From contig JAPKZO010000029.1 of NCBI GenBank assembly GCA_026393755.1, positions 80,490 through 144,489 on the forward strand: a stretch of 64,000 bases of DNA. The letters are read 5' to 3'. The translations under genes were made by a program, and so were the position numbers. Of this stretch, positions 48,694-60,534 are shown in pieces. Below the pieces are notes generated by a model that saw only the letters and a program-made list of their open reading frames with translations, was not told the DNA's origin and did no database searches. Origin of the DNA: Acidobacteriota bacterium (GTDB lineage: Bacteria > Acidobacteriota > Vicinamibacteria > Vicinamibacterales > JAKQTR01). Position 1 is the stretch's first letter, and every line of letters begins with the position of its first letter.

Positions 48694-48893
48694 GTCGGGA
48701 CACCAGGTCAGTTCCTGCAGAATGGCCGCACGGGCAAGATTTTCAAGGCCGAGTTGCGCGAGCCGTTCTGGAAGGGCCAGCACAAGCGCGCGCACGAGAG
48801 AGCGAGGACAATGCCGATCGGCGCCGGACGAGGCGCGATACAATGCCGTCGCGCGCGTGGGTGGGAGCCACGCCCGCTGCCAGGAGGAGACGC

Positions 48894-50597
48894 ATGTCCG
48901 AGGGCCTCGCCGATCGCGGCCGTAGACGCCTGCTCGAACTCGCCGGCACCGCCGCCGCCGCCTGCGCGCTGCGGCCCGTTTCGGTGCTTGCTCTGTCGCC
49001 GTTCGACCTGATCCTGCGGGGAGGCCAGGTGCTCGACGGCACGGGATTGCCGGCGTTTCAGGCCGATATCGGCATTGTCGGCCAGCGGATTGCCGCCATC
49101 GGCGCCATCTCGCCCGACCAGGGGCGGCGCGTGATCGATGTGACCGGGTTGCACGTGTGCCCGGGCTTCATCGACATCCACACACATTCGGACGGCGACA
49201 TCTTCGTCTATCCGACTGCCGACAGCCGGATCCGGCAGGGCATCACCACCGAGTTGACCGGCAACTGTGGCGGATCGGCTGCGCCGCTTGGCGGAAAGGA
49301 CGTGGAAGAGGATCGGCAGTCCTACCGCCAGCAGGGCATCAACGCCACATGGTCGGGCGTGGGGTCGTACCTGGACGCGCTCGACAAGGCAGGGGTATCC
49401 GTCAACCACGCACTGCTGGTCGGCCAGGGCACGCTCCGCACCAACGCGATTGGCAACATCGACAGGAAGTTGTCGGCCGACGAACTGGCCGCGGTCATCC
49501 GCGCGGTCGAGGAAGCGATGGAGCAGGGCGCGTTCGGGCTGTCGACCGGCCTCGAATACACGCCCGGACGCTACACGCCGACCGACGAGATCGTGGCGAT
49601 GGCGCGGGTCGTCGGACGCATGGGCGGGATGTACGCCTCCCACATCAGAAACGAGCAGGCCGCGCTGCTCGAAGCCGTTGACGAAGCGATTGTCATCGGT
49701 CGCGAAAGCGGGGCCAGGGTGCAGGTGTCGCACCTCAAGGCCTCGGGCCGCGTGAACTGGAGCAAGCAGCAGGGCGCGCTCGATCTGATCGCCTCGGCGC
49801 GGCGGGACGGCGTCAATGTGCTGGCTGATGCCTACCCGTACACGGCGTATTCGACCACGCTGACGATTGTGCTCTCGGCCGAGGCGCGCGAAGGAGGGAC
49901 CAGCGACCTGATGGCCCGCCTGAAGGATCCCGTCTGGCGTGTGCGCATGCAGCGCGAGGTCGAAGAACTGATGGCCCAGGAGTTGGGCGACTACGCGCTT
50001 ATTGTCATCGCCCGCGTGAAGTCGACCGCCAACCGCGCGCTCATCGGGAAGAACATGGCCGAGATCGCCGCCGCCTGGGGCATCAAGCCTGTCGAGGCCG
50101 TGCTGCGGCTGATCGAAGAAGAGGAAGGGTCGGTGTCGATCATCGGCCACGGCATGAGCGAAGACAACGTGGAACTGGTGCTGGGCCATCCGCTCGTCAT
50201 GGTGGGATCGGACGGATCGTCGATGGCCCCGGTGGGACGCGCGGCCGAAGCCCGACCGCACCCGCGGTCGTACGGCGCATTCGCGCGTGTGCTCGCCTAC
50301 TACGTTCGCGAACGGCACACGCTGTCGCTCGCGCAGGCCGTGCGCAAGATGACCAGCATGCCGGCCGATCAGATTGGCCTGGTCGATCGCGGCCGTGTTG
50401 CCCGCGGGAAGCAGGCGGACCTCGTCGTGTTCGATCCCGCGACGGTGAAGGACGAAGCCACCTTCGAGCGGCCGCAGCAGTACGCGACCGGCATTCCCCA
50501 CGTGATCGTCAACGGCACCCTCGTCGTCGAGAACAACCGCCACACTGGCGCCAAGCCAGGGCGCGCCATTCGCCGCGGATCGGTCGGCCAGCCATGA
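48894..50597 (+). CDS. N-acyl-D-amino-acid deacylase / D-aminoacylase (exported amidohydrolase)
   Basis: 567 aa amidohydrolase-superfamily enzyme. Metal-site motifs are GFIDIHTHSDGD (HxH), the D-aminoacylase cysteine TGNCGGS, the ligand His in VSHLKASG and the catalytic Asp in GSDGSSMAP, with ARPHPRSYGAF. The C terminus has the small beta-sandwich (GRVARGKQADLVVFD). The N terminus (residues 8-32, with three arginines and a hydrophobic Ala-rich stretch) looks like a Tat-type signal. The ATG at 48894 follows AGGAGG by 6 bases; the frame extends upstream through a likely leader with TACAAT (48837-48842). It may cleave N-acyl-D-amino acids from peptidoglycan or peptides. Confidence 0.88.
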   Translation: MSEGLADRGRRRLLELAGTAAAACALRPVSVLALSPFDLILRGGQVLDGTGLPAFQADIGIVGQRIAAIGAISPDQGRRVIDVTGLHVCPGFIDIHTHSDGDIFVYPTADSRIRQGITTELTGNCGGSAAPLGGKDVEEDRQSYRQQGINATWSGVGSYLDALDKAGVSVNHALLVGQGTLRTNAIGNIDRKLSADELAAVIRAVEEAMEQGAFGLSTGLEYTPGRYTPTDEIVAMARVVGRMGGMYASHIRNEQAALLEAVDEAIVIGRESGARVQVSHLKASGRVNWSKQQGALDLIASARRDGVNVLADAYPYTAYSTTLTIVLSAEAREGGTSDLMARLKDPVWRVRMQREVEELMAQELGDYALIVIARVKSTANRALIGKNMAEIAAAWGIKPVEAVLRLIEEEEGSVSIIGHGMSEDNVELVLGHPLVMVGSDGSSMAPVGRAAEARPHPRSYGAFARVLAYYVRERHTLSLAQAVRKMTSMPADQIGLVDRGRVARGKQADLVVFDPATVKDEATFERPQQYATGIPHVIVNGTLVVENNRHTGAKPGRAIRRGSVGQP

Positions 50598-50700
50598 ACG
50601 GCGGCTGCTGTTTTCGTCAGGCTGCAGTATCGAGGCTCGCGAGACGCGTCGGTTGTCTGCGCGTGTGTCGAGTCGACGAGGCGATTTGATGGGAGGGTCT

Positions 50701-51756
50701 ATGGATGCACAGGATGTCGTGTTGGCCGTGGTTGGTTTCGCAGCCCTGACCGCGATCCTGATCTTCGTCATTTACCGGCGGAAGCAATCGAGCTGGACCG
50801 GAGAGGTGATCGATAAGGACCATGGGGTTTCCATGAAGCCAGTGACTCACACCATCGCGTTCTTCGTCCTTCTCGTCGCGGTTGCGGGCAGCTCGGTCGG
50901 ACTCACGTCGCAGGGCGCCAAAACTCCAGCCCCGAAGTTCGACGGGAACGTCGCCGACATCGTTTGGGGCGGTCGCATCGAATCGGTGACCGGCGTCGCA
51001 CCGCCCGATCTCGGACCCGCCAATTCGCTGATTACCGAGAACGACGCGTGGTTCCGGACGGTGGGCGCACCGGGCCCCAAGGACATCGTCGTGTCCTTCT
51101 TCAAGCGCGAACCGGCGCTGGTGGGTTCGGTCGTCGTGGTGGGTCTCGGCGGCGCTCGAAGCGTTGCCGACGTCGAGATCTGGACGTCGGCCACCAGCGC
51201 GGAGACCGGCTTCATCAAAACGGCAACCGGAACGGTACCGCTCGATCCCAGACCCAACTCGTCGCCCGAGAACACGTTCCGGTTCAACCCGGTCGAGGTG
51301 CGGTATGTGAAGATCCGGCTCATCCGTAACCATGAAGCGCTGGAAAGGAATCGCGGCGACATCCAACTGCGGTGCATACGGGTCATCGAAGCACAGGCAT
51401 CCGGGTATACCCCTTCGCTGACCAGGCATCCCGAAATCGCGGCACCCGTTTTCGTCGCCGAAGGCGCGGCCGCGGCAAGCGGGCAGCCGGTGCCACCGAT
51501 GGGTTGCAGTCCGACAGCGATGCCGATGCAGCCAGGCACGGGCGAGAGCCGAAAGGTCATCCTGGTCGTCGGCAACTACCTCGCCACCGTCGGGGCCTGG
51601 TTGCCAGCGGCGATCACGGCGAAGCGGTTGCCCGCGAAATACACGTCGAGCCGCGAGGAATTGGGCATCTTCGGCCGGGTCGAAACCACGGTCCTGGCGG
51701 CCAAGCACCTGCAACCGTGGATGCTTGCCGATCACGACACGGTGGTCATGGAGTAG
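50701..51756 (+). CDS. Unknown exported protein with discoidin-like region
   Basis: 351 aa, not recognised. The first helix (about residues 6-28, VVLAVVGFAALTAILIFVIYRRK) is followed by a second hydrophobic segment (about 48-68, TIAFFVLLVAVAGSSVG), then by soluble beta-rich sequence. Residues about 130-225 (VADVEIWTSATSAETGF...VRYVKIRLIRNHEALERN) look like an F5/8 type C/discoidin carbohydrate-binding sandwich. GGGAGGG lies just before the ATG at 50701. An ATG at 50833 directly before the second hydrophobic segment is an alternative start that would give a plain signal peptide. It heads a group of four exported or membrane genes on the same strand. Confidence 0.55.
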   Translation: MDAQDVVLAVVGFAALTAILIFVIYRRKQSSWTGEVIDKDHGVSMKPVTHTIAFFVLLVAVAGSSVGLTSQGAKTPAPKFDGNVADIVWGGRIESVTGVAPPDLGPANSLITENDAWFRTVGAPGPKDIVVSFFKREPALVGSVVVVGLGGARSVADVEIWTSATSAETGFIKTATGTVPLDPRPNSSPENTFRFNPVEVRYVKIRLIRNHEALERNRGDIQLRCIRVIEAQASGYTPSLTRHPEIAAPVFVAEGAAAASGQPVPPMGCSPTAMPMQPGTGESRKVILVVGNYLATVGAWLPAAITAKRLPAKYTSSREELGIFGRVETTVLAAKHLQPWMLADHDTVVME

Positions 51757-51943
51757 CCGCCTTCGCCTTCTTCGCCTCGACGCACCGCGGCAGCACTGGT
51801 CGAGGTCGCGACGGCAGTCGCAGGGAAGCGATAGGCCGTGAGACGGGCATCGGGTGGCGACAGCAAAGTCGCGTAGCGGCCGATGGAACGGGCGTCGAGT
51901 CGGGGTTCGTCCCTGCCCGGCGCGAGGGATCGAGGAGCCAGCC

Positions 51944-54900
51944 ATGGAAGACACGCCGAGAACTGGAGTCAGCGTCGAACAGCCATCATCCCCGCGGCGG
52001 CCTGCCGCAATCGGATTGGCGCTCCTGGCGATCGCGGTACAGGTCGCGCTCGTAGACGCCGCCATTGAGACGTTCCGCGGCGGTTCACCCATTCGCTGGT
52101 GGGTCGCGCTGCCCGTGATCGTGTTCGTGGCGCTGAGCGCCTGGCTCTGGAGGCCGGGTGGCTCGGCGGCCAGGCGATGGGGCTGGTCCGGCGCGGCCCC
52201 GTGGTCGATTGGTGGACTGCTGGTGCTGCTGGCCGTGACCGCGTGGCTGCCGGAGGGGCAGGTCAACGGCGTGCGGATGGCGCTACAGCCGACGTCCACG
52301 GTGCTGACGGCAGCGATCGCGCTGGCCGTGATGCTCGCGGCGTATGTGCTCGCGCGCGGGCTCGACTTCCTCCCCAATACCGCAGCGCTTGTCGCTCGCG
52401 GCGTCGCAATCCTCCTGGCGATTTACGCGCTGGCGGCTCTGGGCGTGGCCATCAGGGACCATGCGACCTTCGCATCGCTGTTCCAGGGCGGAGCGGTCTG
52501 GCAGAGACTGCCGCGCTGGCTGCAGGGGACATTCCTCGGCGCACTCGGCCTGTTGCCGCTCGCGATCCTCGCGCAGATCGCGCGATTCGCCGAAACACTG
52601 CGCCGCAAGGCGCCGGTGCGCCTGCTCGTCCACCAGACGACGGCGCTCGTGATGGCCCTGGTGATGGCGGCCTCTGGGCTCGTCGTGCCAGGAATGAGGG
52701 CGACGACAACGGGCGCGGCGACGACAACGGGCGCGGCGACGGCAACGGGCACGGCGACCATGACCAAGTCGGCTGGCGGGCCGCCACCGATGATCGGTCC
52801 CGCCACCGCCGCCGAGTTCGAGCGGTCAGGCAAGGAGCTGTTCGGCCAGAAGGACCCCGTCGCCGTTGGCGAAGAGTTCGTCCGCGCGGCCGAACGCGAG
52901 CTGAGCCGGCCCGGCGTCGATCCTTCCGACGTTGGCGCTCGTGCAGTCGCGCTCGGCCGCGACACCGCAAAGATCTTCGAGTTCCTCCGCGACCAGGTCG
53001 CCCTCGAGCCGTACACCGGCGTCCTTCGCGGCGCGCGGGGGACACTCGCCGCCGCGGCCGGGAACGCGCTCGACCGCGCCCTGCTGGCGCAGGCGCTGCT
53101 CGATGCCAGCGGCGTCGAATCCCGGGTCGTGGCGGGCAAGCTCACCAGCGCCCAGGCCGACGGCCTGCTGGCCCGCTACCTCACGGCCGGGCCCGCCGGG
53201 AGCATCCTCAGCGGCAGCAACGGCAAGCCATCGGCCGCGTCGCTCGACGCCGCCGCGCGCGACGTCGCCGCCAAGGCGGGGGTGCCGCCCGAAGCAGTCG
53301 CCGCGGCCCTGCGCCGCTCGGGGCAGCGTTCCGAGGCCTTCTGGTGGAAGGCCGACGAGCAGCGGGCCGCCAGCCTCGAGTTCCTCACCAGCCAACTGCG
53401 CAAGGGCGGCGTGAGGGCACCGGGAGACGGCCAAGCCGCGCTCACGATGCTCCGCGACCGATTGAAGGAACACTACTGGGTCCAGGCGAAGGGCCCAAGC
53501 GGTGCCTGGACGGAATTCGACCCGAGCTTCCCCGACTCCCGTCCCGGCGCGTCCTTCGCGTCCGACCCGATCGTCCTGCCGAAGATCCCGGCCGACCGCT
53601 TCCACAGGTTCGAACTGCAACTCGTCTACCGGACCCAGTCGGGCAGCAAGCCCAAGCCGGAAGTCCTCATAAAACGAGAACTGGCGTCCGCCGACGCCCT
53701 GTTCGTGCCCCTGGAGCTTCGAATCCAGCCGGGCGAAGCGATCGCCGACAGCAAGGCTCTGCGGGCGATGGATGCACGCCAGCGAGCCGACACGCTCCGG
53801 AAGATCAAGCGGTTCCAAGTCCTGCTACGCGCGGGAGCCAGCGTGTCTGGAGGGCGTGGATTCGACCTCGAGGGCCACACGTTCGACGCATCGGCGGGGC
53901 CGTCGAGCGGATCCGCGCAGGGCCTGATGGGCGGCATGCTCGGGTTCGGCGCCGAGCCCGAACCGGCCAGTTTCCTCGACCTCCAGATCGTTGTCCGCTT
54001 GAGCGGGCCCGGCCGCGTGACGATGACGCAGACACGCACGATCGTTCGCGCGGCCGATACCAAGTCGCCGACCTTCGCGCCGCCGATCGGCGAATGGCAG
54101 ATGCTGATCCAGCCCCAATGGATCTCGCCGGACTTGGCGGGCTTCCAGATCCTGAACTACCTGACCGCCCTGACCAAGGGCGTGACCGCCGCGATGAAGG
54201 CCCGGAAGGGCCTGGGGGCAGTCACACTGCCGGCCCCCATCCCGCAGCAACTGCTGCAGTTCGCCCTGCTCCGGCAGAACGCCACGGCGGGCATCCTGGC
54301 CGGGCAGCCTGGCCTGCGGGCGTTCGTCGGCAGTCCGATGCTCACGATCGCGGGCCATCGGCTCGCCGAGCTGCGCCCAGACGAAGGGATCATCGCCGCC
54401 GAGCGCACGATCGACATCGTCGAGAACGCGGCCCGGTTCGTGACGAAGGACCCGCAATCGCAGGCCCCCTTCGATGCGGCCCTCGGCCAGGGCGTCGCCG
54501 ATTGCACACTCGAGCAGCGTCTCCTGGAGGACGCGTTCCCCGAGTCGGCGACAACCTCCGGCTTGACCATCTTCGACCGTGCGAGGCTCGAGGGGCGCCA
54601 GGCGGTGCTGGCCCGTGCACAGGACACCGACGCGCTGCGGGCGGCTGGCCTGGCCGACACGGACATGGAGTGGATCGGCGCCAACGAGTCGCCGCAGGCG
54701 CGCCTTCTCGTCGCGAAGGCGGCGCAGGGCCCGGCGGCCTGGTGGAGCGTCCGGCCGGACGGCACGGCGGTGCTGCGCGTCAGCGGCGGCCAGGGACAGG
54801 CCCTCACGGAACACCAGCAACTGGTGACCGTGAAGGTCCTGGCCTTCCTCATCTGCGCGGTGGAAAGTATCGGCGCCGTCCACGAGTTCGACACAATAGC

Positions 54901-55054
54901 GAGCAAGGTCAAGCTGGTGTGGTGCGCCATGGCGACCGGAGTGAGCGCCGGAGTGCTATCACTGGGTATGCACGCGGCATCGTGGGTCCTCCTTGCCTTG
55001 GAAGGCGTGGTGCTACTCGCATCGCAGGCCGCCGAGACCTACGGTGAAGAGTGA
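51944..55054 (+). CDS. Large membrane protein with degenerate transglutaminase-like domain
   Basis: 1036 aa. The N-terminal 250 residues have about six hydrophobic helices, then a Thr/Ala/Gly linker made of an 18-bp tandem repeat. Residues about 340-530 resemble a transglutaminase-like core: KIFEFLRDQVALEPYTGVLR, GNALDRALLAQALLDASGVESRVVAG, then HYWVQ (His510) and WTEFDPSFPD (Asp526). Where active enzymes have Cys in the GDCxDKA pattern, this protein has Ala375 (GNALDRA), so the thiol nucleophile is missing and catalysis is unlikely. About 500 further residues of unknown type end with a membrane helix pair. GAGGAG precedes the ATG at 51944. The stop overlaps the next gene as GTGA. Confidence 0.65.
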   Translation: MEDTPRTGVSVEQPSSPRRPAAIGLALLAIAVQVALVDAAIETFRGGSPIRWWVALPVIVFVALSAWLWRPGGSAARRWGWSGAAPWSIGGLLVLLAVTAWLPEGQVNGVRMALQPTSTVLTAAIALAVMLAAYVLARGLDFLPNTAALVARGVAILLAIYALAALGVAIRDHATFASLFQGGAVWQRLPRWLQGTFLGALGLLPLAILAQIARFAETLRRKAPVRLLVHQTTALVMALVMAASGLVVPGMRATTTGAATTTGAATATGTATMTKSAGGPPPMIGPATAAEFERSGKELFGQKDPVAVGEEFVRAAERELSRPGVDPSDVGARAVALGRDTAKIFEFLRDQVALEPYTGVLRGARGTLAAAAGNALDRALLAQALLDASGVESRVVAGKLTSAQADGLLARYLTAGPAGSILSGSNGKPSAASLDAAARDVAAKAGVPPEAVAAALRRSGQRSEAFWWKADEQRAASLEFLTSQLRKGGVRAPGDGQAALTMLRDRLKEHYWVQAKGPSGAWTEFDPSFPDSRPGASFASDPIVLPKIPADRFHRFELQLVYRTQSGSKPKPEVLIKRELASADALFVPLELRIQPGEAIADSKALRAMDARQRADTLRKIKRFQVLLRAGASVSGGRGFDLEGHTFDASAGPSSGSAQGLMGGMLGFGAEPEPASFLDLQIVVRLSGPGRVTMTQTRTIVRAADTKSPTFAPPIGEWQMLIQPQWISPDLAGFQILNYLTALTKGVTAAMKARKGLGAVTLPAPIPQQLLQFALLRQNATAGILAGQPGLRAFVGSPMLTIAGHRLAELRPDEGIIAAERTIDIVENAARFVTKDPQSQAPFDAALGQGVADCTLEQRLLEDAFPESATTSGLTIFDRARLEGRQAVLARAQDTDALRAAGLADTDMEWIGANESPQARLLVAKAAQGPAAWWSVRPDGTAVLRVSGGQGQALTEHQQLVTVKVLAFLICAVESIGAVHEFDTIASKVKLVWCAMATGVSAGVLSLGMHAASWVLLALEGVVLLASQAAETYGEE
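52703..52756. repeat. 18-bp tandem repeat, three units
   Basis: Units ACGACAACGGGCGCGGCG at 52703, 52721 and 52739, the last with two changes. They encode a six-residue Thr/Gly/Ala linker (TTTGAA-like) between the membrane part and the soluble part of the large protein. Length variation would keep the frame. Confidence 0.75.
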
Positions 55055-56001
55055 GAGTGAGGACGCACCCGAGTACCCACCGGGCCTGCCGAACCGCCGC
55101 GCATCTGGTCCTGTCCGGCGTGCTCGCGGCGGGCGTGGCCTGCGGCCGAGGGGATGTCGTGCTCCTTCTCACCGCCGACGCCGACGGCACTATCCGCGCG
55201 TGCGCGAGCTGCTCCGCGGGTGGCGGCCTCGGCGACATCTCGAGGAGGGCGACTGCCATCGCCGACCTCCGGCGCGCGAGTCACTCGCTGCTGCTGGTCG
55301 ACGCCGGCAACGCCCTGATAGGAGTCGACAGTCTGGGTTCCAGCGGCAGGGTGATCGTCGCCGCGTACAACGCCATGGGCTACGATGCGCTCAACCTGTC
55401 GTATCGCGACTTTCGCCTCGGGAAGGCTCAGACACTCGCGGCGCTCAAGAATGCGACTTTTGCGGTGCTCTCGGCGACCTTGATCGACGATGCCTCAGGT
55501 CGGTTGCTGGCCAAGCCCTTCGTCGTCGTTTCCCGCGGCGGCCGGCGCATCGCCATCGTCGGAGCCACGGAGGTCCCCACCGGCGTGGCGGACTTGCCGC
55601 ACATCAGGTCGCAACTGGCGGGCGTACGGGTGCGACCGCTGCTTGAAGCGCTGGCCGAGTGGCTGCCGCGTGCGAAGTCGGAGTCCGACCAGATCGTCCT
55701 TCTCTATCACGGCACCGCGGCCGGTCTCGATGCGATTCGCCAGCGACACCCAGGCCAGTTCGCCGCGATTCTCGTGGGCGGCCTCCGGCCCGATGATCTT
55801 CCCGCGCGTCTCATGCCACCGCTGGTCGGCACGAGCGAGCACGGCAAGCAGATCGCTGAGATCACGTTGGCGGCTGACGGGAGAGCCGCGGTGTCGCAGA
55901 TCGATATCGGCGCTGCGTTCGCCCCTGACCAGGGCATCCAGGATCTGGTCAGGTCGTTCCTGCCAGAACCCGCAGGCGAGCGCAAAGAGGCCCGCAGATG
56001 A
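55051..56001 (+). CDS. UshA-like (5'-nucleotidase/metallophosphoesterase-fold) exported protein with degenerate metal motifs
   Basis: 316 aa. Signal-like N terminus (about residues 16-31, ending GVACG, a poor lipobox). The sequence order follows UDP-sugar hydrolase/5'-nucleotidase N-terminal domains, with a CxxC insertion (CASCSAGGGLGDISRRATAI) as in UshA-like selenoprotein relatives. LLLVDAGNALIG stands where LDxGD is usual, AYNAMGYDALNLSYRDFRLG where GNHEFDYG is usual, and TSEHGKQIAEITL near the end. The DxH, GD and GNHE metal positions are mostly changed (DAD, GN, LSYRD), so activity is doubtful. Starts with GTG at 55051, overlapping the upstream stop (GTGA), so it is coupled to the transglutaminase-like gene. 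Confidence 0.55.
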   Translation: MRVRTHPSTHRACRTAAHLVLSGVLAAGVACGRGDVVLLLTADADGTIRACASCSAGGGLGDISRRATAIADLRRASHSLLLVDAGNALIGVDSLGSSGRVIVAAYNAMGYDALNLSYRDFRLGKAQTLAALKNATFAVLSATLIDDASGRLLAKPFVVVSRGGRRIAIVGATEVPTGVADLPHIRSQLAGVRVRPLLEALAEWLPRAKSESDQIVLLYHGTAAGLDAIRQRHPGQFAAILVGGLRPDDLPARLMPPLVGTSEHGKQIAEITLAADGRAAVSQIDIGAAFAPDQGIQDLVRSFLPEPAGERKEARR

Positions 56002-56089
56002 AGCCCCGTGCAGAGGATCATCAACGCGGATGACAAGTTCGCATTCGACTGTCGATCGGCGTGACCGCGTGACAGGAGGGGCTTGACCC

Positions 56090-57691
56090 ATGAAGAAGTT
56101 CATCATCGCCGTTCTCTGCCTTGTCGTTCTGGCTGGCGCGGGATTCGCTGCGTACCGGCTCGGCCTGCTTGATCGATTCACCGGGACGACGAGGTCCGGG
56201 GAATCGCCGGCAACCGTCGCGACACCAGGCTCACCGACGCCCGGTGATCCCGCCGCGAAAAGTTCACCTTCGGCAACCGGCGCCCAACCAGCTTCCGCTG
56301 TGAGCGATACCGCGCCCGCCTCCGTAGCGAGCGATGCCGCCGAGGCTGCCGCTGCAACGCCCATTCCCCCCGGCCTGGTCGCCACCGCCCAGGTCGGGCA
56401 GTCAATCGCGAACAAGGCGATCGAGGTGCGCGTGACCAACCACCGGACGGCCGCCTCAATCGGCCGCCAGTCCGCAGCCGCGGGCCGGGAGTTCGTCATC
56501 GTCGATACTGCGTGGAAGAGCCTGATCCCGCCTCAGAAGGTGAACCAGAAGAGAGCCTCTGACCGCACGGCCGGCATGGGCAGCCTCGGCTTCGGCGGCG
56601 GCGCCACCGCGCAGGACAAGGCCGCCGACGAGGCGAACACGACGATCGAACAGGTGCCGTTTGCCGTTGGCCCGATGACCAAGCACGTGTGGCTCGTTGC
56701 GGATGGACGGTACACAGAAGGGATCTCCGTCGACGCGACACAAGAGATCGACGGACACCTGCCGACTGGCACCCTCACTATCCCGGGTTTCGAACAGGTG
56801 GTCAGCGGCTCCGTCGCCTTCGAGGTGCCGGCAAACGCGCAATCCCTGGCGCTGCTGTTTCTCGACTCGATCAACGGCCACCTGCTGCTGACGATCAAGG
56901 GCGCGCCGCCGGTGCTGGCCAGCAGCCTCGGCGGGTCGAGTCGCGCGAACACACTCGTGGACCTGGCGCTGGCGGGCGTGTCCTGGGCGGACGCGCCACC
57001 ATCGGCGGCCGGGATGCGCACGCTCATCGTCGGACTCCGGGGCATCAGCCGGCAGAATGCCATAGTCGACGTGCCGTTCGGCGGGTATGCGTTTCTGCAG
57101 ACCGAGCAGGGCTGCCTCGCCGAACCAGACCAGAGAGCCACAGGCTTGACCCGGCAACTCGCGCCGATCGGCCGGTTCCTGCCGTTCGTGCCGAGCGAAG
57201 GCCAGCTCGCGTTCTTGGTTCCGGCGGACACGAAGGCGGCGGCGCTGCTCGTGCGACTCCGGCAGGGCGGTCCGATCGACCTCGCCGTGATGGGCGCCGT
57301 CAAGCCGGCCTGGCCGTCACCCGAGGCGACGATCACGGACGGCGACGTGCTGCGTGTACTGAAACTGCCCGGCACCGCGGTGCCTCCCGGGCTGCCGGCG
57401 GCGCGGTCTGGCAGCGAGCGCATCGCCCTCGACCTGGTCGTCGAGAACCTCCGGTCTGGCGCCGGGATTGACCTGCAGCTCAATCAGCAATTCCGCCTGG
57501 TGGGACCCGACGACAAGCGGTACACGCCTTCGTCTGACAGCGCGCACGCGCCGTGTCGCATGACAGGCAACGTGGTGCCGGCTGGCAGCTCCCGGCGCTT
57601 CACGCTGGTCTTCGACGTGCCGCCCGGCGAGCCGCTGCAGTTCGAGTACCGCGGGTTCAACGTGAAGAGCGAACTCGTCAAGGTGAGGTGA
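56090..57691 (+). CDS. Unknown exported/anchored protein with DUF4352-like beta-sandwich domains
   Basis: 533 aa, not recognised. One N-terminal helix (about residues 4-24) is followed by a Ser/Thr/Ala/Pro-rich linker to residue 95, then beta-rich sequence. Two segments resemble telokin-like DUF4352 sandwiches: about 98-270 (GREFVIVDTAWKSL...SGSVAFEVPANAQSLALLFLD) and about 445-533 (RIALDLVVENLRSG...RRFTLVFDVPPGEPLQFEYRG). A third similar unit may lie between them. GGAGG lies about 11 bases before the ATG. It follows the UshA-like gene by 88 bases and ends the cluster of exported proteins. Confidence 0.55.
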   Translation: MKKFIIAVLCLVVLAGAGFAAYRLGLLDRFTGTTRSGESPATVATPGSPTPGDPAAKSSPSATGAQPASAVSDTAPASVASDAAEAAAATPIPPGLVATAQVGQSIANKAIEVRVTNHRTAASIGRQSAAAGREFVIVDTAWKSLIPPQKVNQKRASDRTAGMGSLGFGGGATAQDKAADEANTTIEQVPFAVGPMTKHVWLVADGRYTEGISVDATQEIDGHLPTGTLTIPGFEQVVSGSVAFEVPANAQSLALLFLDSINGHLLLTIKGAPPVLASSLGGSSRANTLVDLALAGVSWADAPPSAAGMRTLIVGLRGISRQNAIVDVPFGGYAFLQTEQGCLAEPDQRATGLTRQLAPIGRFLPFVPSEGQLAFLVPADTKAAALLVRLRQGGPIDLAVMGAVKPAWPSPEATITDGDVLRVLKLPGTAVPPGLPAARSGSERIALDLVVENLRSGAGIDLQLNQQFRLVGPDDKRYTPSSDSAHAPCRMTGNVVPAGSSRRFTLVFDVPPGEPLQFEYRGFNVKSELVKVR

Positions 57692-57708
57692 CTCGCCGCC
57701 CGGAAGCG

Positions 57709-57873
57709 ATGGCGAAGACGCGGAAGAAACTCAAAGTCATTCCTCGACGGCACCGATGGCCGCCATGTCCGGCGGCGCGGCTGACGCCGTCTGTTTGCCT
57801 GGCGCGACTGTCAGGCGGCGTCGTGCTGTATGAACTGCTCCGCCGGTACCGGCTGCTGCCGACGCCTCGCTGA
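57709..57873 (+). CDS. Possible small basic protein (doubtful)
   Basis: 54-aa frame starting MAKTRKKLKVIPRRHRWPPC. It is very basic, with GGAAG only 2 bases before the ATG, 17 bases after the preceding stop. Its last codons lie in the first copy of a 30-bp direct repeat (57851-57880). Length and composition do not separate it from chance; listed because of position only. Confidence 0.25.
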   Translation: MAKTRKKLKVIPRRHRWPPCPAARLTPSVCLARLSGGVVLYELLRRYRLLPTPR

Positions 57874-57923
57874 GCGGCCCAATCCCTGGCACAGGCTGCT
57901 GCCGACGCCTCGCTGAGCGGCCC
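57851..57923. repeat. 30-bp perfect direct repeat (two copies, 43-base period)
   Basis: The same 30 bases (beginning GGCTGCTGCCGACGCCTCGC) occur at 57851-57880 and 57894-57923, separated by 13 unique bases. The repeat does not extend on either side. It lies in the 279-base gap between the DUF4352-like gene and the 100-aa gene, where nothing else is supported except the doubtful 54-aa frame. It looks like a recent slippage or duplication event, or a double binding site. Confidence 0.8.
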
Positions 57924-57957
57924 GTCTCGCCAGGGCGGTCACCCCAGACATCTGGAG

Positions 57958-57963
57958 TATCAT
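57958..57963 (+). promoter_or_regulatory. Putative -10 element of a leaderless transcript for the 100-aa gene
   Basis: TATCAT ends exactly 7 bases before the ATG at 57971. The only GGAG lies 5' of it, too far from the ATG for a ribosome site. Transcription would start at or near the ATG. Confidence 0.45.
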
Positions 57964-57970
57964 CGACTCC

Positions 57971-58273
57971 ATGGAAGACGGATCGCCCAGAACCGCCTAC
58001 GATCTCGCGATGGAGCGGCTTCGCAAGAAGGACGCCGACGCCGGTATCGAACACGTCACGCTGACCGACACGCAGAAGGCGGCCATCGCCGAGGCCCGGA
58101 ATTTCTGCGAAGCCAAGCTCGCCGAGCGCGAAGTGCTTCACCAGTCCACCGTGCGACGGACCCCGGACCCGGAAGCCCTCAAGCTCATCGAAGAGAATTA
58201 CCACCGCGACCGTGAGCGCTTTATCTCCGACCGCGACGCGAAGATCGCCAGGATCCGACGCGGCGACACCTGA
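57971..58273 (+). CDS. Conserved-looking small protein of unknown function
   Basis: 100 aa, soluble, highly charged and helical (AYDLAMERLRKKDADAG, QKAAIAEARNFCEAKLAERE, LIEENYHRDRERFISDRDAK). It contains one Cys and no membrane segment. Codon use is like that of real genes in the window. The stop is two bases before the ATG of the GT-C protein, so the two are probably cotranscribed. The function cannot be named; a coiled-coil or nucleic-acid/regulatory helper protein is possible. Confidence 0.7.
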   Translation: MEDGSPRTAYDLAMERLRKKDADAGIEHVTLTDTQKAAIAEARNFCEAKLAEREVLHQSTVRRTPDPEALKLIEENYHRDRERFISDRDAKIARIRRGDT

Positions 58274-58275
58274 GC

Positions 58276-60534
58276 ATGGCGCGAGAGATCGTCAGGATCG
58301 CGCAACGCGGCTCGGCGTTCCGGCGCCCTCGTCGTCTGGCCGCGTTCGCCGAAGCGCACGAATGGGTGATCGTTTCCGGAATGATGCTGGCGTTGTCGAT
58401 CGCGACGACGTGGCCGCTCGTTCGCGACGCGAGGAAAGCGCTGCCCTCGGATCTGGGCGACCCGCTGCTGAACACGTTCATCCTGGCGTGGGATGCGGAT
58501 CGCATCCTCCACGGCCTCGCCGGACTGTGGAACGCGCCGTTCTTCTTCCCGCTCCAGGACACGCTGGCGCTCTCCGAGCATCTGCTGGGCATCGCGCTCT
58601 TCACGGCGCCGCTGCAGTGGCTGACGCGCAATCCGGTGCTCGTCTACAACGCCGCGTTTCTCGGTTCGTACGTGCTGGCCGGCACCGGCATGTACTTCCT
58701 GGCGCGCCTGCTGTGGGGACGCCGGGATGCGGCCGCCATCGGCGCGCTCGCGTTTGCGTTTGCTCCGTACCGCGCGGTGCAGGCCTCCCATCTGCAGGTG
58801 TTGATGTCGGGCTGGATGCCGATCAGTCTGTGGGGGCTTCACACGTACTTCAGAACCGGATCGCGGGGCGCGCTGGCCGTGGCGACCACCGCTTTCGTCG
58901 TGCTGGGCTTGTCCAATGGCTACTTCCTGTACTTCTTCGCGCTTCCGGTCGCGGTGCTTGCCGCCGCTGAACTCGCGCGGCGCGCTGTGTCCGGCCCAGA
59001 CAGAACGACCACGCCCCTTGCCCGATCCGTCTCCGACCTCGCCATCGCCCTGATCGCCGTCGTCGTCGTCTTCGCGCCGATCGCGGCCGCTTACCTCCGT
59101 GCGCAGTCCACGCTTGGCCTGCACCGGAGCCTGGGGGAGTTGCGCGAGTTCAGCGCGACGACGGCCGACTATCTCAAGATTCCGCCGGCGCTCTGGCTGT
59201 GGACCAGTCGGCTGGCGAGCGGCACAGCTGAACACAGCCTGTTTCCGGGAGTGTTCACCGTGGGGCTCGCTGTGATCGCGCTCTCGTGGCTCCGTCGATC
59301 GCCGGCCGCATCCGCCACGGCCGGCGACGAGAGCGGCAGGCGGTTTCTGGTGATCGTCTACGTCGTTGTGTGCGCCATCGCCGCGTGGCTGACGCTGGGG
59401 CCATTTGCGCCCGGACCGTATCGGGCACTGATTGATCTCATGCCCGGGTTCGGCGTCCTTCGTGTGCCCGCCCGCTTCATGGTCATCGTTGCGCTCGCCC
59501 TTGCCGTACTCGCGTCGGCCGGCGCGGCGTGGATTCTGCAGCGGCTGTCCAGAAGGGCGGCGTTCTGTGTGGCGGGGCTGGTGTCGTGCGCGATTGTGCT
59601 CGAGGGTTACAGTGGCCCGCTACGCATGAAACGATTTGATCCGAGCCAGCCCGGCCGGCAGCGGATCAACGCGTGGCTCGAGAGCGGCCAGCCGGGCGGC
59701 GTGCTCGAGTTGCCCATTTCCGCCGACGACCCGGTTGCGATCACCCTGCCGTATCAGTTCAACACGCTCCTTCACGGTCATCCCATCGTCAATGGCTACT
59801 CCGGCCATGGATCGGTGCTGCAGAACCTGCTGGGCGGTCCGGGGTCGCCGCTGAATGGCACCGATGCGGACATCGAGGCGACGATTGTCGGATTGCGATC
59901 AATCGGTGTCCGGTACGTCGTCCTCAACGAGGCTCTTATCGCGCGCTACGGGCAGCCGTCGAGTCCAGACCCGGGCCAGTTCGTCAGGACGCTTTCGCAG
60001 GCGAGCGGCCAGGTGGTCGACACGCGCCACGAGAACAACACCTGGGCGTGGCAGCTTGCTGCGGCACCCGCGCTCGCGCCCGTCGCCTTCGCGAACCTGT
60101 CGCGGGTGACCGCCGACACGTTCAAGGCGTCGGCGTCGTCTGAGCCGAGTGACATCCGGTTCGCCTTCGACAACAGCCTGGTGACGCATTGGTCGACCAT
60201 CGCGGGGCAGACCGGCAGCGAGTGGATACGGATCGCCTTTGATCGTGATCGCGACATCGGTTGTCTCGAGTTCGATATGGGACGCGACCACGCCGGAGAG
60301 TACCCGCGTGACGTCGTGATCGAGACCGTGGCCGCCGACGGAAGTCGGCGGAACGTATTTGCCGGGTCGGTCGTGACCCGGCTTATCGAAGGCATCGGAC
60401 GGGACGGCCGTTCGTCGAGGGCGCGGATCGAATTGCCGGCGAACCGGGCGCGCGGGTTGTGGATCCGGCAGACCGGTCGCGAGAGCGGGGCCCCGTGGAC
60501 GATCGCCGAACTGACAGTCTGGCAGCGTCACTGA
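58276..60534 (+). CDS. Membrane glycosyltransferase-like protein (GT-C/YfhO-like) with C-terminal discoidin-like domain
   Basis: 752 aa. About 11-12 hydrophobic helices occupy residues 30-450. The first loop contains DLGDPLLNTFILAWDADRI, the acidic loop of GT-C transferases, and later FGVLRVPARFMV. Residues about 475-600 are a soluble periplasmic part (GGVLELPIS...LPYQFNTLLHGHPIVNGYSG), as in mannosyl or glycosyl transferases of the DUF2079/YfhO type. Residues about 615-750 form a discoidin/F5-8C-like sandwich (ASASSEPSDIRFAFDNSLVTHWST...WIRIAFDRDRDIG). The ATG lies two bases after the preceding stop. Likely role: sugar transfer from a polyprenyl carrier at the outer face of the inner membrane; acceptor unknown. 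Confidence 0.72.
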   Translation: MAREIVRIAQRGSAFRRPRRLAAFAEAHEWVIVSGMMLALSIATTWPLVRDARKALPSDLGDPLLNTFILAWDADRILHGLAGLWNAPFFFPLQDTLALSEHLLGIALFTAPLQWLTRNPVLVYNAAFLGSYVLAGTGMYFLARLLWGRRDAAAIGALAFAFAPYRAVQASHLQVLMSGWMPISLWGLHTYFRTGSRGALAVATTAFVVLGLSNGYFLYFFALPVAVLAAAELARRAVSGPDRTTTPLARSVSDLAIALIAVVVVFAPIAAAYLRAQSTLGLHRSLGELREFSATTADYLKIPPALWLWTSRLASGTAEHSLFPGVFTVGLAVIALSWLRRSPAASATAGDESGRRFLVIVYVVVCAIAAWLTLGPFAPGPYRALIDLMPGFGVLRVPARFMVIVALALAVLASAGAAWILQRLSRRAAFCVAGLVSCAIVLEGYSGPLRMKRFDPSQPGRQRINAWLESGQPGGVLELPISADDPVAITLPYQFNTLLHGHPIVNGYSGHGSVLQNLLGGPGSPLNGTDADIEATIVGLRSIGVRYVVLNEALIARYGQPSSPDPGQFVRTLSQASGQVVDTRHENNTWAWQLAAAPALAPVAFANLSRVTADTFKASASSEPSDIRFAFDNSLVTHWSTIAGQTGSEWIRIAFDRDRDIGCLEFDMGRDHAGEYPRDVVIETVAADGSRRNVFAGSVVTRLIEGIGRDGRSSRARIELPANRARGLWIRQTGRESGAPWTIAELTVWQRH

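Follow-up and report, generated by a model that had tools for sequence, protein, structure and literature searches.

Membrane transglutaminases of the TgpA type are multi-transmembrane proteins with an extracytoplasmic transglutaminase-like domain, and they are linked with vWA proteins in MoxR-vWA or Bat operons. In Rhs and other polymorphic toxins, inactive transglutaminase domains have been proposed to bind peptides at the cell surface (Zhang et al. 2012, PMC3482391). The 5'-nucleotidases UshA and CD73 have relatives among the UshA-like (seleno)proteins, for which the NCBIfam models NF041198 and NF049981 are given with the motifs CxU and CxxU, respectively (PMC13188914). We found no description of the role of these UshA-like selenoproteins in the open literature.

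Here we compare these systems with a locus of four genes, termed A to D, in a 64,000-nucleotide stretch of DNA (the window) from contig C29 of a 4.4-Mb draft genome of an Acidobacteriota bacterium. Its features are as follows:

50701-51756, forward strand: gene A, 351 amino acids; an internal ATG at 50835 is the start matched in relatives
about 51016-51330, forward strand: discoidin-like domain of A, located after the N-terminal hydrophobic segments and followed by the beginning of a central domain
51757-51943, forward strand: gap between A and B; relatives have the remainder of A and an extra gene here
51944-55054, forward strand: gene B, 1036 amino acids
about 51995-52705, forward strand: N-terminal multi-transmembrane region of B
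about 52919-53623, forward strand: predicted periplasmic pseudo-transglutaminase of B, followed by a domain without assignment
53060-53080, forward strand: motif GNALDRA of B (residues 373-379), with Ala375 at the column of the catalytic Cys
53471-53521, forward strand: His510 and Asp526 of B, kept from the transglutaminase triad
about 54815-55033, forward strand: C-terminal transmembrane segment(s) of B
55051-56001, forward strand: gene C, 316 amino acids, GTG start, 4-nt overlap with B
55201-55212, forward strand: CASC motif of C (Cys51 and Cys54), aligned with the CGU of UshA-like selenoproteins
56090-57691, forward strand: gene D, 533 amino acids
N-terminus of D, forward strand: signal anchor 'MKK...AYRLGLLDR', apparently uncleaved
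about 56378-56917 and 56939-57301, forward strand: two related beta-type repeats of D
about 57401-57655, forward strand: C-terminal DUF4352 domain of D

The initial annotation of this DNA had described four co-directional genes with export or membrane signals, and the open reading frames, the codon-position GC and the N-terminal hydrophobic segments all agree with that description. Third-position GC is 0.79-0.86 in A, B, C and D, similar to the neighbouring genes and as in real genes. According to hydropathy, A has one or two segments at its N-terminus, B about 6-7 and C and D one each, and the C-terminus of B has 1-2 more. The translational coupling of two genes, also claimed earlier, is probable for B and C given their overlap: the start of C lies within the final codons of B, the shared sequence being GTGA. 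Spacing is wider between A and B (187 nt) and between C and D (88 nt). No sigma-70-type promoter was found at the locus, so the operon structure of A to D is drawn from spacing alone. A phage-defence island was rejected because PADLOC matched no anti-phage defence model at the locus. Further downstream (58276-60534) lies a gene for a polytopic 752-aa protein with a discoidin-like C-terminal stretch (PF00754, E 1.3e-4, below the cut-off), in keeping with A upstream.

The four proteins were sought in 162 genomes of the order, and D also in a sample of 396 genomes from the phylum. Homologue searches were made within Acidobacteriota, apart from a scan of genome contigs from bacteria and archaea with a 6-row alignment, which yielded 7 loci and reaches close relatives only. 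B with its transglutaminase-like domain is present in 10 of the 162 genomes, and its N-terminal membrane module alone in six more. Large A occurs in the same 10 genomes, in nine of them at E < 1e-50 and in the tenth (G090) as an A-like gene that adjoins B on the same contig; the Fisher p value for this 10/10 co-occurrence is 4e-16, with kinship ignored, generic vWA-only matches (ORFs of 316-656 aa) left out of the A count and the boundary between large A and generic vWA proteins chosen after the hits were seen. D is found in 5/162 genomes, always with the A-B system (p 3e-7), and in 3/396 genomes of the phylum sample (that of the window and two others), each time beside A and/or B. Apart from one short fragment pair (G053 C44), every D adjoins A and/or B. 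Three of the 162 genomes have the close form of C, in each case beside a B-type gene; most A-B-D clusters are without it. Gene orders in the related clusters are:

L035: A-x-B-y-D
L034: A-x-B-D
L049: A-x-B-D, with B of a different type
L038 with L006/L171: A-B-LemA-DUF3137, assembled from two genomes
L047: redoxin-A-B; the gene immediately upstream of A encodes a two-domain protein of the AhpC/TSA-redoxin type
L039: B-A
L036: B-C
L044: B-C, with a short-anchored B
L163: A-D
L089: D-A-B, outside the order (other class)
L090: D-B-A, outside the order (other class)

In one genome (G043) the parts of the system are dispersed. Conserved synteny had been named beforehand as support for a system, and it is observed far outside the genus, including the D-A-B and D-B-A orders of distant Acidobacteriota. 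B was not found in the same-genus genome or in the three same-family genomes searched; the system is therefore patchy and dispensable, such absences being uncertain since draft genomes may lack genes. The proteins of the window are 72-75% (D) and 55-56% (B) identical to their relatives. A and D of L049 are 62-72% identical to those of L034 and L035 against only 25-31% for B. It thus seems that one B type was swapped for another while the frame stayed stable.

Although A was described before as a discoidin-like protein, that domain is only part of the picture. A match is seen, but at 16.5 bits against discoidin F5/8 type C (PF00754; Pfam cut-off 28.2) it stays below the cut-off, as do the relatives of A, and a PDB profile search with A gave one weak vWA match only. 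What had been overlooked is that A of the window is truncated and that its relatives are large proteins bearing a vWA domain. Within the order these measure 850-1050 aa, outside it up to 1709 aa; they consist of an N-terminal anchor or signal, the discoidin-like domain, a central domain (in most), an Ig-like stretch, the vWA domain and a carboxypeptidase-regulatory-like end. All eight relatives examined for vWA motifs have DxSGS and GETP, and all but L165 have TDG as well; eight Cys columns are conserved. Aligned with a relative of 864 residues, the window protein reaches only position 307 and thus lacks about 550 residues: the rest of the central domain, the Ig-like stretch, the vWA domain with its metal-site motif (DxSxS, T, D) and the carboxypeptidase-regulatory-like end. 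A tblastn search of the 187-nt gap before B gave nothing that could convincingly be taken for a remnant of the lost portion, and the extra gene that relatives have at this place is absent too. Either a genuine truncation or an error of the draft assembly could account for the stop. Contig C18 of the same genome encodes a full-length A-type vWA protein of 910 aa (L162:8918-11650), without B or D adjoining. Presumably this protein complements the truncated copy, or the latter serves as a discoidin-only subunit. At the other end (50701-50834) the frame of A opens with an additional transmembrane segment and 'RRKQSSWTGEVIDKDHG', upstream of the start common to relatives; a fusion with a small upstream gene is possible.

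B scores 19.2 bits against Transglut_core (PF01841; Pfam cut-off 23), and its relative in L035 exceeds the cut-off with 31.8 bits. Active transglutaminases of this family have a Cys-His-Asp triad, of which B lacks the Cys. We aligned 19 homologues, covering both distant clusters and three shorter proteins of other families. None has Cys at the catalytic column, which holds Ser 12 times, Ala six times and Thr once. In window numbering, all 19 share N374, D377, W512 and D526, and 18 keep H510, the B of L044 being without the His. As Cys is missing throughout, its loss is, judged by this alignment, ancestral, and the flanking residues are constrained. Together with the retained His, Asp and N-x-x-D this makes B a member of an old non-classical family and not a decaying enzyme. 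The dead transglutaminase-like site of the initial annotation therefore stands as regards the absent Cys, but it should not be called degraded, the state being ancestral and conserved in the 19 homologues. As for the binding role proposed with it, family-wide loss of the Cys with the surrounding residues kept, as well as the published inactive transglutaminases (PMC3482391), supports a putative non-catalytic function in binding a peptide or partner.

Proteins resembling parts of B also occur in other settings. Three loci (L091, L092 and L093) from other Acidobacteriota families encode proteins of about 750 aa that make up another conserved family with a Cys-less transglutaminase motif, without A or D adjoining. 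In the genome of the window and in G034, a stand-alone B-type N-terminal multi-transmembrane module of about 240 aa (L043:8590-9312 and L050:7471-8217) adjoins genes for a ZnuA-type protein and an ABC-3 permease. Given these neighbours, the N-terminal module may be linked to metal transport.

D was correctly termed DUF4352-like, since it scores 40.2 bits against PF11611 (Pfam cut-off 25.9). Its two repeats are alike (hhalign probability 92%), and no likeness of either to the DUF4352 part of the protein was detectable; PDB profile searches with B and D gave no match. N-terminal anchors resembling 'MKK...AYRxGW' are common to the A, short B-type and D proteins of the clusters, and their recurrence would fit a shared placement of these proteins at the inner membrane, facing the periplasm.

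C has no Pfam match. Against the UshA-like (seleno)protein model NF041198 it scores 82.7 bits and its close orthologues 85 and 92 bits, far under the cut-off (275, NCBIfam), partly since the C-terminal half of the larger model is missing from C. A profile of three close C proteins matched the N-domains of CD73, UshA and SoxB in the PDB (E 7e-14 for CD73 and UshA). The ligands of the dinuclear metal site of UshA and 5'-nucleotidases are replaced (TNDxH by TADxx, DAGD by DAGN, GNHE by xSYR), whereas they are kept in those other UshA-like genes from the order that could be aligned. These observations bear out the earlier description of an UshA-like protein with lost metal ligands, and an active UshA enzyme was rejected on account of this loss. 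C does have a CxxC at the CGU position after strand 1, and Cys51 and Cys54 are invariant among the three close C proteins. It is thus likely, as far as its sequence tells, that C is a Cys-based relative of the UshA-like selenoproteins with a thiol role. The scaffold role suggested before is less likely than a redox role because the invariant CxxC takes the place where related proteins have Cys-x-selenocysteine. Many UshA-like selenoproteins of the phylum have an in-frame TGA; such proteins, with the TGA in the CGU motif, were seen in several Acidobacteriota outside the order (L176-L187).

Overall, we assign a probability of about 0.5 to the reading that the locus belongs to a conserved envelope system and has been partly eroded. 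The core of this system would be formed by full-length A, a protein of the adhesion type, together with B and D, acting as a non-catalytic membrane-anchored complex. The three proteins would be held at the periplasmic side of the inner membrane. There A would bind a partner protein or glycan through its vWA metal site and its discoidin domain, the pseudo-transglutaminase groove of B would hold a peptide segment, and D could serve as a beta-sandwich spacer or co-receptor. C would be an optional thiol-redox accessory that keeps the eight Cys of A-type proteins, or the Cys of a client, in the right state. Envelope maturation, adhesion and surface display would all be compatible with such a complex. 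A counterpoint is that A of the window lacks the very vWA domain on which the model relies.

The conservation seen in B exceeds the needs of a pure binding fold, and it might be argued that the protein is still an enzyme. His, Asp, Asn374 and Asp377, with Ser at the nucleophile column in most homologues, would then form a different site, for instance that of a serine-type or acid-base hydrolase or of a glycan-modifying enzyme of the envelope. The invariance of N374, D377 and D526, the near-invariance of H510 and the 12 Ser among 19 sequences favour this, but B of the window has Ala at the nucleophile column, others have Thr or Ala, the His is missing in L044 and the fold context agrees with the published inactive transglutaminases. 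We consider such an enzyme unlikely. Alternatively, the locus may be a redox or maturation module in which C passes electrons or makes disulfides in secreted proteins, A, B and D being its substrates or platform. Whereas the CxxC at the CxU position, the eight conserved Cys of A and the redoxin protein upstream of A in L047 fit in with this, C is restricted to three loci, most A-B-D clusters do without it and no redox gene is constant, which makes the module distinctly unlikely.

Erosion could also have gone further, leaving a decaying remnant of a lost system without present function in this lineage. B, C and D are nonetheless intact long frames with normal codon-position GC and high identity to their relatives, and another contig of the genome encodes a full-length A. 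Even with A truncated, the extra gene between A and B missing and no B homologue in the same-genus genome, we hold complete decay to be still less probable. That the four are unrelated envelope genes and neighbours by chance is hardly credible: the patchy distribution and the spacing of 88 and 187 nt would allow it, but the exact co-occurrence and the repeated adjacency over families and classes argue strongly against it.

Returning to the preferred reading, a partly eroded envelope system, we tentatively suggest, as a possibility rather than an expectation, that it represents an undescribed class of envelope machine across distant Acidobacteriota, in which a vWA protein, a pseudo-transglutaminase, a DUF4352 protein and a Cys-based redox partner come together and two enzyme folds have been repurposed jointly. 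It would provide a defined portable gene set (A, B and D, with C, coiled-coil, LemA and DUF3137 as optional members) that can be used as one unit. The locus had been called undescribed before. This holds for the combination, as the open literature yielded no paper on A, B and D together or on DUF4352 with transglutaminase, and only unrelated staphylococcal matches for DUF4352 with von Willebrand; it does not hold for the component parts, which are of known kinds.

Compared with TgpA and Bat systems, the likeness lies in a multi-transmembrane protein with a transglutaminase-like domain and a vWA partner. B differs from TgpA in having no TgpA_N, no DUF4129 and no catalytic Cys. Since none of the window genes scanned (48843-60534) matched TgpA_N, DUF4129, MoxR or DUF58, a Bat/TgpA operon was rejected. 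D shares its C-terminal domain with other DUF4352 proteins (PF11611), but carries two more repeats, related to each other, and belongs to a separate family whose occurrence follows that of the system.

The inactive transglutaminases of Rhs toxins resemble B in the lost catalytic residue and in the position of the domain behind a signal or transmembrane segment. Unlike them, B lacks both RHS repeats and a toxin domain (no RHS match was found in B or the cluster relatives scanned), and it combines multi-transmembrane anchors with a long C-terminal region without assignment and with vWA and DUF4352 neighbours. Two giant YD-repeat (Rhs-like) proteins of the phylum (L188:3195-13949 and L189:1842-13085) carry a Cys-less motif near the N-terminus; the pattern G-N-x-x-D-[RKQ] is common to B and these two proteins, where it reads GNDVDQ. 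Inactive transglutaminases would with B extend beyond Rhs toxins. C, finally, has the metallophosphoesterase-like N-domain of UshA and CD73, but neither their metal ligands nor their C-terminal nucleotidase domain. With the UshA-like (seleno)proteins of NF041198 and NF049981 it shares the fold family, the Cys motif after strand 1 and the loss of GNHE (PMC13188914), whereas it differs from NF041198 in its much lower score, in consisting of the N-domain only and in having CxxC for CGU. The UshA-like selenoproteins would thereby gain a small relative that uses Cys and whose gene neighbours are fixed.
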